Origin: an uncultured Pseudomonadota bacterium
GTDB lineage: Bacteria > Myxococcota_A > UBA796 > GCA-2862545
Length of the DNA: 64,000 nt
Direction of reading: 5' to 3'
Assembly: GCA_913061235.1 (NCBI GenBank)
Contig: CAJXTB010000001.1
Location: 372,001-436,000, forward strand
Shown here: positions 1 through 58,689 of the stretch, piece after piece
Numbering within the stretch: the stretch's first letter is position 1
Layout of the letters: every line of letters begins with the position of its first letter
The notes under the pieces: generated by a model
The model's input: only the letters and a program-made list of their open reading frames with translations
What the model was told of the DNA's origin: nothing
Database searches by the model: none
Program-made: the position numbers and the translations under genes

Positions 1-666
1 AACAATGCCCTGCGAGGTGACCGATGCAACGTTCGTCCTGGTTTGAACGTCGATATTCCGCTCGACCAAGACCGACAGCACACGTCGACGGTACCGCTTC
101 CCAACGTCTGGCAGAATGGTCTCCGCCCGCTCAACCAAGGCGACTCGACTCTTCGGAAACCGAGCTCGCAACGAAAACGCCAGCTCAATACCCGCCGGGC
201 CACTCCCAACAACCGCGATGCTCTGTGGAGACGCACTCGACAGCGCGACCATCCGGTCCAACAGGGTCGCCAGCGGTCGCGTTGAGATCGCGTTGGCTCG
301 AACACCATTCGTCTCAAGTCCCGCAACCGAACCGCCAATATCCAGGCTGCAGACGTCGTAAGCGAGCGGCTGACGCGCCTCGAGCATCACCCGCTTAGCA
401 ACCGGGTCGATGCGGGTCATTCTTGCTTCGATGACCGTAGCCCCAGCGCGACGTGCAAGCGGCCAGACATCGATCTCAAGGTCTGAAAGGGCCACCGCCC
501 CCGCGATGAATGCCGGGACCATGCCACTGTACGCACTCGTGGTCCGGTCCATCACCACCGTGACGCGGACGCCTTCGGGTCGACGCATGGCAAACGCACG
601 CAACACTTCTACGTGCGCATGTCCGCCTCCGACCAACACGAGATGACGGATTGCTTCACCTGTCAT
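1..666 (-). CDS. FAD/NAD(P)-dependent oxidoreductase of the SelD-fused type, N-terminal part (runs off the left edge)
   Basis: The first 222 codons of a gene read leftward from an ATG; the rest is outside the window. A dinucleotide-binding motif VGGGHAHVEVL lies near residues 12-22, followed by a YSGMVPAFIAG stretch near residue 50 and a second Rossmann motif, VVGSGPAGIEL, near residue 155. The GGGHAHVEVL and YSGM-P signatures are typical of the pyridine nucleotide-disulfide oxidoreductase domain often fused N-terminally to selenide water dikinase (SelD), and found alone as an NDH-2-like protein. Whether a SelD domain follows cannot be seen. The divergent DUF1499 gene starts 36 bp away. A selenoprotein near 58 kb makes a selenium role plausible, but that is inference. 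Confidence 0.85.
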   Translation of the reverse strand, partial: MTGEAIRHLVLVGGGHAHVEVLRAFAMRRPEGVRVTVVMDRTTSAYSGMVPAFIAGAVALSDLEIDVWPLARRAGATVIEARMTRIDPVAKRVMLEARQPLAYDVCSLDIGGSVAGLETNGVRANAISTRPLATLLDRMVALSSASPQSIAVVGSGPAGIELAFSLRARFPKSRVALVERAETILPDVGKRYRRRVLSVLVERNIDVQTRTNVASVTSQGIV

Positions 667-23806: not shown

Positions 23807-25540
23807 ATGTCAGACGGTCAAAGCGGCGGGCTCACAACCATGGGCAAAGCCTTTGTTGCCCTGTTTGCGGTAGGGCTCCTTGGCGCCGGATTGTTTCTAG
23901 CGCGCGACATCTTGTTGCCGAGCGGCTCCTCGGATGACGCAACGGTAGACCTCGATGCGGCACGCATTGCACTCGGTCAGACCCCAGAGGCTCCCGACCT
24001 CACCGGCATCACAACGGTGCAAGAGTACACCTTCGTTCCACAGGACCGTCTGCCCCCCGTTCAGGGTGTCTCCGGCTACGAGTGGGACGAAAACGACCCG
24101 ATTGTGAAGTTCCCCATCAACATGTGGATTGGTTGGCTTCCAATCGTTGCCGCAAACGGCGGCTTCGCCCCTAACGAAGACTCCATCTTCTACAAAGAGT
24201 ACGGATTCAAGGTCGACCTGACCCTGATCGACGACCCAGTCATTGCCCGCGACACCTACGCTGCCGGTCGCAGCCACGCGCTGTGGGGAACCATGGACAT
24301 GATGGTGTTGTTCGCGCCGGAGCTCATGCGTGACAGCCGCACCGCCCCCCGCATTGTTCAGCAGATCGATTGGTCCGCGGGCGGTGACGGCATCGTGGCG
24401 CGTGAAGGCATCAACAGCATTACAGATCTGCGCGGAAAGACGGTTGTCTACGCGCAGAACAGCCCCTCTCAGTACTACATCAATGCGCTGCTGATCAACG
24501 CTGGCATCCAGCCAGGCGAGGTCACCCACCGCTTCACATCAAGCGCCTTCGAGGCCTCTGCCGCGTTCGTCTCCGACCCGAGCATTGATGCGTGTGTCAG
24601 CTGGGCACCGGACATTTACAACATCCCCGACAACGTTCCGGGAACCAAGCTGTTGAGCACAACTGCAGACGCCAACAAGCTCATCGCGGATGTTTGGGCC
24701 ATTCGCGCAGACTTCGCGAACGACCACCCGGAGATCGTCACGGGCTTGGTCTCCGGCATCTTTAAGGGCATGGACCTCGTCAACGAAAACCCCGGCCAAG
24801 CAGCCGTGTGGATGAGCGAGGGCTTTGGACTTCCCGTAGACGAAATCAACGGCATGATGGCAGATGCCCACCTGACGAACTTCGGCGAAAACGAGGCCTT
24901 CTTCCTCAACGCCAACAACCCGACCAACTTCGAGCACACCTGGGAAGCCATCACGTTCGTCTATCGGGAGCTGGGCCTCATCAACAGTCCCGTCCGTTGG
25001 GACCAAGTCGTCGACTTCTCGACCGTACAGAGCTTGGCCGCAGCAGGAACATTCGACGCCCAGGTGGACACCAGCGCCACCACCTTCATCCCACAAACCT
25101 ACACCCGCGTGACGGCTGAGGCCCCGCTACTGACGCAAGAGTTGCGCATCAACTTCTTCCCCAACAGCAACGACCTGCACGAACTGGGCCGCGACGAGTT
25201 CGGCAACGTTCGCGAGGGCACTCTGTACGACCCGCTAGTCGACACCACTGTTGAACGCGCCGCACGCTTGGCTGGTCAGTTCGACCGCGCGGTCATCGCC
25301 ATTACCGGGCACACAGACAACTCGATGCAGGGCAAGGTCCCCTTCCAGGCCGTGCAAGAGCTGTCTGAGCTACGCGCCGGTGCTGTCCGTGACGAGCTCG
25401 TCGAGCGATACGACTTCCCGGCTGACAAATTTGTGGTTGAAGGCGTGGGCTGGAACGACCCCGTCAACCCCAATGACCCTGACAATCACTTCGCCAACCG
25501 TCGCGTCGAAGTCGCAGTCTACCCGCCAGAAGGCGAGTAG
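23807..25540 (+). CDS. ABC-importer binding protein fused to a C-terminal OmpA domain
   Basis: 577 residues. One N-terminal membrane helix (AFVALFAVGLLGAGLFLA) has no lipobox. Residues about 70-430 form a type-2 periplasmic binding protein of the nitrate/sulfonate/taurine (NMT1/SsuA) group, with MWIGWLPIVAANGG, GGDGIVAREGINSITDLRGK and VSWAPDIYNI. The last 130 residues are an OmpA peptidoglycan-binding domain (AITGHTDNS; FANRRVEVAVYP). The receptor therefore seems anchored in the inner membrane and tied to the cell wall. Permease and ATPase genes follow. Ligand unknown; family members bind small anions or sulfonates. GGAGG precedes the ATG. Confidence 0.9.
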   Translation: MSDGQSGGLTTMGKAFVALFAVGLLGAGLFLARDILLPSGSSDDATVDLDAARIALGQTPEAPDLTGITTVQEYTFVPQDRLPPVQGVSGYEWDENDPIVKFPINMWIGWLPIVAANGGFAPNEDSIFYKEYGFKVDLTLIDDPVIARDTYAAGRSHALWGTMDMMVLFAPELMRDSRTAPRIVQQIDWSAGGDGIVAREGINSITDLRGKTVVYAQNSPSQYYINALLINAGIQPGEVTHRFTSSAFEASAAFVSDPSIDACVSWAPDIYNIPDNVPGTKLLSTTADANKLIADVWAIRADFANDHPEIVTGLVSGIFKGMDLVNENPGQAAVWMSEGFGLPVDEINGMMADAHLTNFGENEAFFLNANNPTNFEHTWEAITFVYRELGLINSPVRWDQVVDFSTVQSLAAAGTFDAQVDTSATTFIPQTYTRVTAEAPLLTQELRINFFPNSNDLHELGRDEFGNVREGTLYDPLVDTTVERAARLAGQFDRAVIAITGHTDNSMQGKVPFQAVQELSELRAGAVRDELVERYDFPADKFVVEGVGWNDPVNPNDPDNHFANRRVEVAVYPPEGE

Positions 25541-38503: not shown

Positions 38504-39229
38504 TCATCCGTAGCGAAGCGACAAGCCACCATCCATTGGGATGACGGCGCCGTTGATGTAAGTGCCTTCGACCGCCAAGAAGCGGACCAAGGTAGCAATC
38601 TCTTGCGGTGTTCCCGCACGTTCCATCGGAATGCGACGCTTCAGATGCGCGCGCTTCTCCGCTGAGTAGTCCTCGGGCCAGCACACCTGACCTGGGCTCA
38701 CACCAACCGTGCGAATCGTGGGGGCGAGCTCAATCGCCATGGACTTTACCAGCATAGCCAGCGCCGCCTTGGACGTGCTGTACGCCGCGTGATGGTTCAC
38801 CGGCTGGTCAGCACCAATGTCGACCATGTGAACGATGACCCCGCCGCTGCCTGCGCGCAGGGCGTCCAACAAGCCCTGGGACACACGCATGGGCGCGCGA
38901 AGATTGATGTCGTGCTGCCGCTCCCATTCGGTGTCGTCTACATCTTCAAACCGACAGGGGTTGAAGATGGAGGCGTTGTTGACCAACACATCAACGTCGT
39001 CCCAAATCTCAAGGACACCGTCGACAAGCTGTTGACACCCCTCTTTGGTCGACAGATCTGAGGCGATGAGATGAACACTCACCCCATGGGCACGACACCG
39101 CTCTGCGGTTCGCTCGGCGTCTTCGTCACTGCTTCGGTAGTGCAGCACTACGTCGAAGCCGCAGCGCGCGAACTCCTCAATGATTCCGGCGCCTACACGC
39201 TTTGCAGCACCCGTCACAACCACTCTCAT
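38504..39229 (-). CDS. Short-chain dehydrogenase, pteridine-reductase/FolM-like
   Basis: 241 residues of classical SDR: GAAKRVGAGI cofactor motif, an Arg in HYRSS that favours NADPH, LVNNAS, and catalytic AYSTSKAAL (Tyr-x-x-x-Lys). The usual SDR serine region reads VHMVDIGADQPVNHHAAYS, with Asp in the place where pteridine reductases (PTR1, FolM) have it. With folB adjacent, reduction of dihydropterin or dihydrofolate is likely. Overlaps the transporter gene before it by four bases. Confidence 0.82.
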   Translation of the reverse strand: MRVVVTGAAKRVGAGIIEEFARCGFDVVLHYRSSDEDAERTAERCRAHGVSVHLIASDLSTKEGCQQLVDGVLEIWDDVDVLVNNASIFNPCRFEDVDDTEWERQHDINLRAPMRVSQGLLDALRAGSGGVIVHMVDIGADQPVNHHAAYSTSKAALAMLVKSMAIELAPTIRTVGVSPGQVCWPEDYSAEKRAHLKRRIPMERAGTPQEIATLVRFLAVEGTYINGAVIPMDGGLSLRYG

Positions 39230-54752: not shown

Positions 54753-55928
54753 CTACAGCTCGCCGGCTCGGCTGCCACCACGAGCCGATGTCCAGACTTC
54801 GGTACGACGATTCTGTGCGCGACCCGAGCTGTTCGCATTCGATGCGACAGGATGGTCGTAGCTGTAGCCAGCCGAGTGGATGGTCTTGTCCGGATGGGCG
54901 GCACGCAGACGCGAGGCGACCGCTTCTGCGCGACGTGCGGACAGGCTTCGGTTGTAGGCGTGCGAACCCTTGTTGTCGGTGTGCCCCTCGACCCACATCT
55001 CGGTGATCTCTGGGTGTTCTTCCAGGTCCGCCGACAACTTTGCAACAGCCGCTTCGCCTTCTGGCTTCATGGTGTCTTTGTCAAAGTCAAAGTAGACCGG
55101 TTCCAGCTCCAACTTGTCCGGGACGGGGTCCGGGATGGGGTCGGGCGGATCAGGGGTCTCGCCCTTGCCACCGAACATGCCGTCGTGAGCAATCTCCAGT
55201 GTCTGCACAGCGAGGTCGCTGCTACCGCCATTGAGACTCGGGCCTTCCCAACTGACTGGCCACGGACGAGCGACCTCAAAGCGACGTAGCTCCATGCCGT
55301 CATTGTCCCGCAGGATGATGGTCAGCGTGGTCTCAGTGCGTTCCTTGAACCCGTCATTGATCCAGCGGTCACGCCAGGCATGAAGCTCGTCCTTGGCGCA
55401 CTCACCGTGCTTGAGCACCAAGTTGTCCCACTTGCTGCGACCCACGCGCTTGTGGGTAGAGAAGTTCATGCCACCTTCTTCAATCTCATGGACTTCTGCA
55501 GTGCTCTTCATGCCGGAGCACTCGAGGAAGCTGCCGATCTCAACACCGTTGAGCATGACGCTGAACGAGTAGTTGCCCCACGGGTCTCGCTCGTCTTTGC
55601 CTTCTGGCGCGCCGTAGCCGGTGCCTGCGTTGTACTGACCGGTCGGCTGGTTGACGTCACGCAGCTCAAAGCGGCCTGGGTTGTAGGCTCCCGACGGCTG
55701 CGGCAGGTCACGGTTCTCAAATCCGGAGCCCGGATTGTAAGCCCCCGAAGGCTTAGACACGGAGCCTTCTTGGTACCCGCCTGGATTGTACGCACCCGAC
55801 GCAGAGCCGAGGCTTGCGCTCACCCGGACACCGGCGGCGCTGTACGAGCCCGACGCTTTCGCTACGTAGCGTGGCTGGAATGCGCCAATATTGAAGTTGA
55901 AGTTTCCAGAATTCTTCTTTTTCGGCAC
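54753..55928 (-). CDS. Contractile-tail tube (gp19-type) domain fused to an OmpA domain
   Basis: 391 residues with the chosen GTG (PKKKNSGNF), no signal peptide. Residues 24-108 hold about five units around SGAYNPG (SGSYSAAG, SGAYNPG three times, TGQYNAG) of 17-18 residues. Residues 116-251 match the T4 gp19/tail-tube family: NYSFSVMLNGVEIGSFLECS, EVHEIEEGGMNF, WDNLVLKHGE, PWPVSWEGPSLNGG, AVQTLEIAHDG. A Pro linker leads to an OmpA domain (WVEGHTDNKGSHAYNRSLSA; GRAQNRRTEVW). No sheath, baseplate, spike or AAA gene is near. A possible longer start (55970) would give a Cys-rich hydrophobic N-terminus. Confidence 0.85.
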   Translation of the reverse strand: MPKKKNSGNFNFNIGAFQPRYVAKASGSYSAAGVRVSASLGSASGAYNPGGYQEGSVSKPSGAYNPGSGFENRDLPQPSGAYNPGRFELRDVNQPTGQYNAGTGYGAPEGKDERDPWGNYSFSVMLNGVEIGSFLECSGMKSTAEVHEIEEGGMNFSTHKRVGRSKWDNLVLKHGECAKDELHAWRDRWINDGFKERTETTLTIILRDNDGMELRRFEVARPWPVSWEGPSLNGGSSDLAVQTLEIAHDGMFGGKGETPDPPDPIPDPVPDKLELEPVYFDFDKDTMKPEGEAAVAKLSADLEEHPEITEMWVEGHTDNKGSHAYNRSLSARRAEAVASRLRAAHPDKTIHSAGYSYDHPVASNANSSGRAQNRRTEVWTSARGGSRAGEL

Positions 55929-56040
55929 GGGACAACCCCACAAAACACGGCAAAACAGAGTGCAAAGCAAAAGCCAAGCGTCTACAGAGTACCACGTTCC
56001 TTGGCGACAAGCGGAGCGATTTTCCGCAGCCTGCTACAGA

Positions 56041-57897
56041 CTAGTCCATCTCAAGGATGCGGAACTCAACACGGCGGTTTCGGGCACGCCCTTCATCGGT
56101 GCTGTTGTCGGCAATAGGCACCTGTTCGCCGAAGCCACGGGACTGCAACCGTCCTTCCTCGACACCCTGCGCAATCAAGAAGGCACGCACCGCAGCAGCA
56201 CGACGGTCGGACAGATCGAGGTTCATCTCGTCTCCGCCTTGTGCATCCGTGTGCCCCTGGATTTGCACGCGACGAACCCGTTCTTCGCTCTGGAGAAGCG
56301 TAGCGATCTCTTCGAGTAGATCGAAAGATTGTCCCTGGATGACGTCGCTGCCTGTCTCAAAGTAAATCTTCTCGGTGACTGTGATGCGGTCGCCTTCAAC
56401 CACAGCACGTGGGTCGCGAAGTACCGCGTCGACCATCAGCTCTTGGTCGGATTCCAAGGTGATATTGCGACGGTAGATACCAACACCTTGAGCCTTGAGG
56501 AAGACCAGGTATCGCCCCGGTGGAAGCTCGTAGCGGTCCAGCCCCTGCGCCCCAAGGCGGCGGGTAGCATCGAGCGGAGCGCCCGGACCAATGATGGACA
56601 GTCCAACACTGTCTACAACACTGCCAGAAGCATCCTTGACGCGAATCGACACGTAGCCAGGAACCACGGCTTCCATGTCCAGCTCGATCGGGTACTCACC
56701 CGACACAACGTTCAGCGTCTCGCTGCCGTAAAAGCCAGGAATCGAGCCTTCAATTTCGTACGTTCCCGCAGCCAGTTCCAGCGGAATGGCCTCTTGCAGG
56801 GTCTCGATCTGTTGGGTCTCACCGCCGCTCGAAACACTCACGTAGACGTCCGACTCCAAGTCGCCGCTGATGGCGGCCGTAATGAGCACGCGGCCACCTG
56901 CGTCCGGGCAGCCGTCGAGGTCTTGGTAGCTATTGAACGTCTCTGGGTCGTCTGGGCACTGGTCGCGCTCGTTGACAATTCCGTCCATGTCACGGTCAGC
57001 ATAGTTGAGTTCAATCTTACCGAATCCAACGCCTGCAAAGAGACGAAACGCCGAAGCGCCAGCGCCAGCATTCACGCCCGTTCCACCGCCAGCAAGGAAG
57101 TGCAGCCCGTTCGATACGCGGTAGCGAGCCGATGCCAGAATCTCGGCTGGCGAGGTTGTGCCCTTGACGTTGGACGCAGCAAGTGACGATGAGATGCGCC
57201 CCTCAAGGGTGATGCCCAGGCCTTGGGTTGGGTGAACACCAATCGCCGCGCCAGCGATGAGCTGGTCTGCACCAATCTGGTTGTTGAGGTTCACAGATGG
57301 GTTGAACCGCGGTCCAGCAGACCCCGTCAGTGTCAGTGCTTCCAGCTCATAGGTCACCGAAACGTCGAAGCCACCCGTGATTCCACCTTGACCCAGGAAG
57401 CGCGTCTCGTCACCCGTTGGCAAGACCAAGTACGGCGCTATACCTAGGCCGAACCCGCCAGCAGCGCGTGGCTTGGTCTGCACGATGGGGCTGTAGGCGC
57501 CCAGGCGAATGTCACCGATACCGGCACCCGTCGCTTCGCCTTCGGAGGAGGCTGCCAAGTACATGGGTACTGCGATGTCTAGGCGGACCCTGTCATGGAC
57601 AGCGACACCGGCGGACAGGTTGAACGCGACCAGGCTGTCGATGATGCGCTCGACCTCCGTGGGTCGACCATCTGCGTAGCTGAGCTCGCGGACCAATGGG
57701 TCGTCAGAAAAATCGACGACACCGGTGGCCCAGAACTCGCCCTGGTGGACTGCACCGGCACGCAGAACTGTCACAGGATCGCGCACGTCACCGTCGTTCG
57801 CGGTCATAGCGAACCCGTGGGCGTCAAAGCCATCCTCTTGGGCGGCAGCAGAACTAGCAAACAACGCAGACAACGCAATGGCGGTCACAAGACGCAT
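56041..57897 (-). CDS. Outer-membrane OmpA-family protein with beta-barrel and TSP3 unit
   Basis: 618 residues. Signal peptide (MRLVTAIALSALFASSAAAQ), a barrel-like region of about 300 residues (GIGDIRLGAYSPIV; GFGLGIAPYLVLPTGDETRF) resembling transporter-type barrels, one TSP3-like unit (DRDMDGIVNERDQCPDDPET), Ig/PEGA-like domains, and an OmpA domain (IQGHTDAQGGDEMNLDLSDR; GRARNRRVEF). I start at the ATG six bases after GGGG. It ends 112 bp before the tail-tube/OmpA gene on the same strand and may be its partner. Similar architecture to the protein at 19-21 kb. Confidence 0.88.
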   Translation of the reverse strand: MRLVTAIALSALFASSAAAQEDGFDAHGFAMTANDGDVRDPVTVLRAGAVHQGEFWATGVVDFSDDPLVRELSYADGRPTEVERIIDSLVAFNLSAGVAVHDRVRLDIAVPMYLAASSEGEATGAGIGDIRLGAYSPIVQTKPRAAGGFGLGIAPYLVLPTGDETRFLGQGGITGGFDVSVTYELEALTLTGSAGPRFNPSVNLNNQIGADQLIAGAAIGVHPTQGLGITLEGRISSSLAASNVKGTTSPAEILASARYRVSNGLHFLAGGGTGVNAGAGASAFRLFAGVGFGKIELNYADRDMDGIVNERDQCPDDPETFNSYQDLDGCPDAGGRVLITAAISGDLESDVYVSVSSGGETQQIETLQEAIPLELAAGTYEIEGSIPGFYGSETLNVVSGEYPIELDMEAVVPGYVSIRVKDASGSVVDSVGLSIIGPGAPLDATRRLGAQGLDRYELPPGRYLVFLKAQGVGIYRRNITLESDQELMVDAVLRDPRAVVEGDRITVTEKIYFETGSDVIQGQSFDLLEEIATLLQSEERVRRVQIQGHTDAQGGDEMNLDLSDRRAAAVRAFLIAQGVEEGRLQSRGFGEQVPIADNSTDEGRARNRRVEFRILEMD

Positions 57898-57987
57898 CGA
57901 TTTCCCCATCTTCTCGGTCCGGTCAGGGTGTCACATGCCAGGGCTCGCCGCAATGAAGACCGTTACAGCAAAAGCCTTGGAGGTCAC

Positions 57988-58215
57988 ATGGTGTCCATCA
58001 CGTACTGCGTGGTTTGAAACTACCTCCCGCGCGCTGCCCGGGCGGCAGATGTCTTGCGGGAGGAACTGGGTCTGAACACAACACTGGTGAAGGGCCGTTC
58101 CGGCATCTTCGTGGTGAAGGTCGACGACATTGTCGTGGCCCAAAAGACCCTATTCGGCTTTCCCAGCGAACAGCAGATCCTGGAAGCGGTTCGCGCCGCA
58201 CTCCCTGAAACGTAG
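57988..58215 (+). CDS. SelW-like (Rdx) selenoprotein with in-frame TGA (Sec)
   Basis: 75 residues read through a TGA at codon 10. The start has GGAGG four bases upstream. Residues 2-12 are VSITYCVVUNY, a CxxU redox motif right after the first beta strand, as in the SelW/SelT/SelH thioredoxin-like family, followed by LPRAARAADVLREELGL and KGRSGIFVVKVDDIVVAQKT, then LFGFPSEQQILEAVRAAL; GxFxVxVDG and GFPSE-type segments are family traits. The frame continues without other stops on both sides of the TGA, and a fitting SECIS hairpin follows. Ends TAG. It would be missed by normal gene callers. Lies in the gap between two minus-strand genes. Probable thiol-redox protein. Confidence 0.85.
58015..58063 (+). 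promoter_or_regulatory. Candidate bacterial SECIS element (TGA codon plus stem-loop)
   Basis: The TGA is followed after five bases by a perfect 8-bp stem, CCTCCCGC/GCGGGAGG. Inside it CTGCC pairs with GGCAG around a CGGGC loop, about 22 bases after the TGA. Bacterial SECIS hairpins sit just after the UGA, with an apical loop about 16-37 bases away and a G among the first two loop bases; both fit. SelB would bind here. Confidence 0.75.
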
Positions 58216-58275
58216 TCTGGTGCGAGTGCTCCGCTATGAGCCGCACAGCATCGCTAGTTAGCCCCTACCCATGCC

Positions 58276-58689
58276 CTAGAGCCAGTCGGCCAAGATGGCG
58301 CGGAAGCTGTCCGTCCACGGCGCTGGGCGCCAGTTTTCGGGGTCAACACGCACCACCGTTCGGGTGCCTCTGGCGTGTACCTCATCACTGTCCATTGGCA
58401 TCAGAACGAAGCCGAAGGTGAGTGACGAGCCGCCGAGACGCTCGACCCACACGCGAACGCGAACGTCCCCCACTCCGCGGACGGGCTGTTCGTACTCCAC
58501 CGTGTTGGCCTTCACGAAATGGAAGCGGTCCGGATGCTCAACTTCCTGTAGAGACCCCAAGCCGAGCGCCTGCCAGAACGAGCCTAGGGTGCGCTCAAAA
58601 AGCAACAAATAGCGGGCATTGTGCAAGATGCGGTAGGGGTCAAGGTCGTCGAAGTACACGCCCATGACGCGTTCGTGAAAGCGTTTCAT
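58276..58689 (-). CDS. Acyl-CoA thioesterase, 4HBT/YbgC-like hot dog fold
   Basis: 137 residues. VYFDDLDPYRILHNARYLLL is the hot-dog signature (YxDxDxxxHxxxY), with Asp in the catalytic place, and EYEQPVRGVGDVRVRVWVER follows the usual strand order. Such enzymes hydrolyse acyl-CoA thioesters, often fatty or hydroxybenzoyl. GGAG precedes the ATG by five bases. Convergent with the selenoprotein gene. Confidence 0.85.
   Translation of the reverse strand: MKRFHERVMGVYFDDLDPYRILHNARYLLLFERTLGSFWQALGLGSLQEVEHPDRFHFVKANTVEYEQPVRGVGDVRVRVWVERLGGSSLTFGFVLMPMDSDEVHARGTRTVVRVDPENWRPAPWTDSFRAILADWL

Follow-up and report, generated by a model that had tools for sequence, protein, structure and literature searches.

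The window analyzed here, a 64,000-nucleotide stretch of DNA, belongs to a Myxococcota-like genome (designated G000; 7.18 Mb in 72 contigs, 99% complete) and contains a small selW-like gene whose reading frame starts with an ATG at 57988, meets a TGA at codon 10 (58015-58017) and continues for 65 more codons up to a TAG at 58213-58215 (Table 1). With the TGA translated as selenocysteine (U), the product is MVSITYCVVUNYLPRAARAADVLREELGLNTTLVKGRSGIFVVKVDDIVVAQKTLFGFPSEQQILEAVRAALPET. The Pfam Rdx profile matches this product over residues 2-69 (E = 1.7e-11; 44.6 bits, where the cut-off is 22.6), as does TIGR02174 CXXU_selWTH, the NCBIfam model for the CXXU SelW/T/H subfamily (38.6 bits, above its cut-off of 34.2). 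Within the whole genome this locus is the only Rdx match, and it is flagged as containing one TGA. An initial annotation, made from the sequence alone, had proposed that the frame interrupted by this stop encodes a SelW/Rdx protein with a CxxU motif and a good ribosome site. Both proposals hold: the Rdx and SelW profiles match, the read-through product carries the motif C7-V8-V9-U10, and the GGAGG site lies 4 nt upstream of the ATG, with GGAG-type sites likewise found upstream of many homologues. Moreover, codon usage 3' of the TGA is coding-like.

When the same DNA is read with translation table 11, the frame falls apart into a 140-residue ORF that stops at the TGA, plus a remnant of 53 residues, which explains how annotation could miss the gene; most of the 140-residue ORF is antisense to an OmpA-family gene (56041-57909, minus strand). 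The selW-like gene stands alone: its OmpA-family and thioesterase-like neighbors are both encoded on the opposite strand, so that genomic context gives no hint of a substrate. A separate observation in this part of the window is a 405-residue protein (54753-55970, minus strand) in which an OmpA domain comes after a T4 gp19-like tail-tube domain, a combination that looks unusual.

Table 1. Coordinates of features within the window.
Feature	Position	Strand	Basis or remark
N-terminal oxidoreductase part of the SelD fusion gene	1..666	-	Open-ended ORF; identical to the first part of the 692-residue ORF in L019
Ribosome-binding site GGAGG	57979..57983	+	Sequence; 4 nt upstream of the ATG
selW-like gene	57988..58215	+	75 residues with TGA as U; Pfam Rdx and TIGR02174 matches
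Codon of Cys7 in C-x-x-U, predicted resolving Cys	58006..58008	+	Cys in all 31 homologues; TGC and TGT alternate synonymously
In-frame TGA, predicted to be read as selenocysteine (residue 10)	58015..58017	+	TGA count and alignment column in homologues
Lower stem of the predicted SECIS (58023-58030 with 58056-58063), less conserved	58023..58063	+	MFE and pairing
Apical hairpin of the predicted bacterial SECIS, CUGCC-CGGGC-GGCAG	58034..58048	+	Covariation, RNAalifold, bSECIS geometry

Conservation of the in-frame TGA was assessed using 58 genomes, namely G000 and relatives from its family and order. An Rdx gene occurs in 38 of these and, in every one of the 38, contains exactly one in-frame stop, which is always TGA. 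Among the 31 homologues that were extracted and aligned (45-64% identical to the window's copy), the TGA invariably falls within a single column, corresponding to the U of C-x-x-U. Other residues invariant in this alignment include (numbering from residue 2 of the window protein) I3, Y5, C6 and Y11, and the Tyr and Cys codons upstream of the UGA vary synonymously. Given the coding-like usage beyond the TGA, its single occurrence in each of the 38 genes and its confinement to one column, its presence is not due to chance. A scan of genome contigs with the single protein found no relative; a search with a seven-row alignment yielded 26 named loci. Named loci of the UGA form are mostly from Myxococcota or 'Deltaproteobacteria' bins, together with a few Acidobacteriota and one named isolate, Corallococcus exercitus. 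Some environmental bins titled Bifidobacterium breve or Klebsiella pneumoniae (loci L071, L073, L076 and L077) harbor SelW genes that do not differ from those found in genomes of the Myxococcota order, and hence these names look mislabelled.

Across the phylum, 185 of 377 genomes contain an Rdx gene; among the matches listed, most have one TGA, while one high-scoring group has none. The best 30 TGA-free proteins are of the C-x-x-C form and possess a distinct tail. In other words, the relatives have either Sec (TGA) or Cys at this position, as a comparison suggested by the initial annotation was meant to reveal: Cys occupies the UGA column in the C-x-x-C paralogues and also in one of two tandem copies in genome G161. 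In a maximum-likelihood tree, a single branch separates the UGA from the C-x-x-C forms (support 99/97); the finer forks, being based on few columns, are unresolved. The tandem pair itself (L127, G161:C546:11312-11757, minus strand) consists of one C-x-x-C and one C-x-x-U SelW-like protein and thus offers a natural comparison between Cys and Sec.

Immediately 3' of the UGA the mRNA is predicted to fold into a SECIS-like element, consisting of an apical hairpin, which starts 16 nt past the TGA and whose loop lies 21 nt past it, and of a lower stem. The 54 nt starting from the UGA (58015-58068) have an MFE of -26.5 kcal/mol (z = -3.48 relative to shuffles), and the 45 nt 3' of the UGA one of -22.4 kcal/mol. 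Applied unaided to 30 distinct sequences, RNAalifold returns the same five pairs and 5-nt loop. Within the alignment, 98% of apical cells are paired and three of the five pairs exhibit compensatory changes, with covariation amounting to 20 cells as compared with 5.9 in shuffles--a score that neither the 500 shuffles nor the slid controls ever attain. For the lower stem 74% of cells are paired, with compensatory changes in six of the eight pairs. The pair 58035/58047, which alternates between C-G, U-A and G-C, joins third codon positions, and therefore selection upon the protein fails to explain its covariation. The pair 58036/58046 (G-C or A-U), on the other hand, is associated with a joint change from Ala-Ala to Thr-Val and, more rarely, to Ile-Met or Ser-Leu.

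The bSECIS model specifies an apical loop of 3-9 nt located 16-37 nt after the UGA, a stem of at least 4 bp, a G within the first two loop positions and an MFE limit of -7.5 kcal/mol (PMC13188914). The hairpin agrees with this geometry, having a 5-nt loop (CGGGC) with G at loop position 2, a 5-bp stem and a spacing of 21 nt; the apical stem of the window gene has, by itself, -6.3 kcal/mol, which is weaker than the energy limit if this limit is applied to that stem alone. Because an apical hairpin of equal or greater stability accompanies 10% of the TGAs in the window, the hairpin constitutes evidence only through its covariation. No named Rfam SECIS matches within 57700-58500, even at E-values up to 10, which is unsurprising, inasmuch as bacterial SECIS elements resemble one another little (PMC13188914). 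A search for a SECIS after the UGA, proposed along with the gene, has produced a SECIS-like hairpin with compensatory changes.

The initial annotation also implied that the organism decodes selenocysteine, and the four genes by which this was to be judged--selA, selB, selC and selD--are all present in the genome. A tRNA-Sec scores 60.8 bits (the Rfam gathering threshold being 47) and is independently reported by ARAGORN as tRNA-SeC with anticodon TCA. SelA exceeds its cut-off of 267.9 with 451.9 bits; SelB, at 309 bits against a cut-off of 242, includes the SelB beta-barrel and the winged-helix domains SelB-wing_2 and wing_3. SelD scores 193-196 bits (cut-off 125) and forms the C-terminal half of a 692-residue protein, the only one in the genome that exceeds the SelD cut-off. 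The N-terminal half of this fusion is a pyridine nucleotide-disulfide oxidoreductase of the TIGR03169 Nterm_to_SelD type, and the protein lies above the cut-offs both of TIGR03169 and of TIGR00476 selD; the TIGR04369 'fusion_not_SelD' model matches it as well, with 407.7 bits, well below its cut-off of 700. Within the SelD half, a GCAAK motif (a C-A-A-K stretch) lies where the catalytic residues Cys17 and Lys20 are located in E. coli SelD. The fusion gene (G000:C1:370588-372666) runs past the start of the window and lies 57 kb from selW. Among the relatives, five have neither SelA nor an above-cut-off SelB, and four of these five likewise lack the selW-like gene (Fisher p = 0.04 for co-absence, uncorrected for relatedness); the fifth, G008 (77% complete), has the UGA gene.

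Two alternative readings of the TGA need to be weighed against its decoding as selenocysteine. Within a decaying pseudogene, or as a result of sequencing error, a Cys codon (TGC or TGT) could have turned into TGA; a single base change is enough for this, and homologues with C-x-x-C do exist. A lesion or error of this kind, however, is not expected to recur in all 38 gene-holding genomes of the order, within a protein that is conserved on both sides of the stop, alongside a covarying hairpin and in the presence of the Sec machinery; this reading is accordingly rejected on account of that recurrence and retains practically no plausibility. Alternatively, the UGA might be read as an ordinary residue, either by a near-cognate tRNA or through UGA->Trp decoding, or else the first nine codons might constitute a regulatory ORF. 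Formally, the identity of the inserted residue is not given by sequence alone. Nevertheless, within the order TGA also serves homologues of the gene as an ordinary terminal stop; tRNA-Sec, SelA, SelB and SelD are all at hand; and the UGA sits at precisely the redox position that Cys holds in the paralogues, making this second reading very improbable.

It is almost certain, as judged from these comparisons, that the selW-like gene specifies a small oxidoreductase of the Rdx/SelW family, with a thioredoxin fold, and that its tenth codon, UGA, is translated as selenocysteine. The frame, the family, the conserved C-x-x-U, the covarying hairpin and the full Sec machinery are directly apparent from the sequences. 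In the established pathway, Sec is made on tRNA-Sec by SelA and SelD and is carried by SelB, which binds the hairpin, and Sec is inserted at the UGA; C-x-x-U is the redox pair of SelW-type proteins. By analogy with this known pathway and family, from which actual Sec insertion, the catalytic roles and the partners are inferred, SelB together with Sec-tRNA(Sec) would bind the mRNA hairpin just 3' of the UGA and deliver Sec in competition with termination. Within the resulting protein, Sec10 would perform the attack and Cys7 the resolution, the two forming a reversible selenenylsulfide that may support thiol-disulfide or peroxide-linked redox chemistry.

Elsewhere in the genome are two Prx-like proteins, each with one TGA within a W-U-P-x-C motif. 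The first (L125, G000:C9:2976-3338, minus strand; AhpC-TSA), with its TGA at SAMW-U-PSC, is probably a second selenoprotein; the other (L126, G000:C7:159888-160178, minus strand), with its TGA at SVDW-U-PYC, is possibly a third. The former is the better supported based on the hairpins 3' of the TGA (z = -2.64 for L125 and -1.31 for L126). U-x-x-C forms of Prx-like thiol:disulfide oxidoreductases have already been described as a selenoprotein family (PMC13188914). The genome's best formate dehydrogenase match has no in-frame stop. Within the window, other in-frame TGAs were considered and set aside: those at 38506 (minus strand) and 11957 (plus strand) both look like two ordinary neighboring genes sharing a frame, and those at 24541, 7842, 4503 and 38663 look, by eye from their translations, like shadow frames.

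These data make it very probable that selenocysteine is decoded in this Myxococcota-like lineage and that one selenoprotein at the least, and probably three, are retained there, of a sort that standard gene-calling programs are apt to split or overlook. With its clean, conserved UGA and its covarying in-frame SECIS, the set of 31 sequences should be useful for training such programs. It also appears somewhat probable that two things are true together: that Sec has become fixed in the SelW of this Myxococcota order (38 genes without a Cys form), and that the SECIS hairpin, being located within the coding region, steers the protein sequence, with paired residues changing together.

The finding leaves the general picture of bacterial Sec use unchanged: SelW-like is listed among the high-confidence predicted families of prokaryotic selenoproteins (PMC13188914), and by 2006 such selenoproteins were already known in Desulfotalea, Geobacter and others, Deltaproteobacteria included; organisms that contain Sec have hardly any Cys homologues, or none (PMC1794560). 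The present case adds a further lineage, in which Sec is strictly conserved, and a clear covarying SECIS. A search of the accessible literature for SelW or selenoproteins in myxobacteria found nothing pertinent, which is weak evidence of absence. In Epsilonproteobacteria, SelW genes have often been wholly missed by annotation, and their SECIS has an apical hairpin of 5 or 6 bp with an invariant loop G (PMC4607533). The best NCBIfam profile by E-value (2.5e-17) is NF041051 SelTWH_Campy, but with 62.9 bits the window gene stays under the cut-off of 88 for that model and falls outside this equivalog. Among solved Rdx/SelW structures, the homologue profile matches 3dex (4.9e-15) and 2npb, selenoprotein W (0.02), a relation of sequence only. 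The C-x-x-C proteins of Myxococcota with SelT/SelW/SelH domains share the Rdx family and the redox site, with Cys in place of Sec, but they form a separate branch, have a longer tail ending in RDR...LGHSD and lack the UGA. The closest parallel is with the bacterial SelW-like (PF10262) selenoproteins: the window gene belongs to the same family and has the same C-x-x-U with one Sec, but comes from another lineage, a Myxococcota order whose genomes are mostly uncultured.
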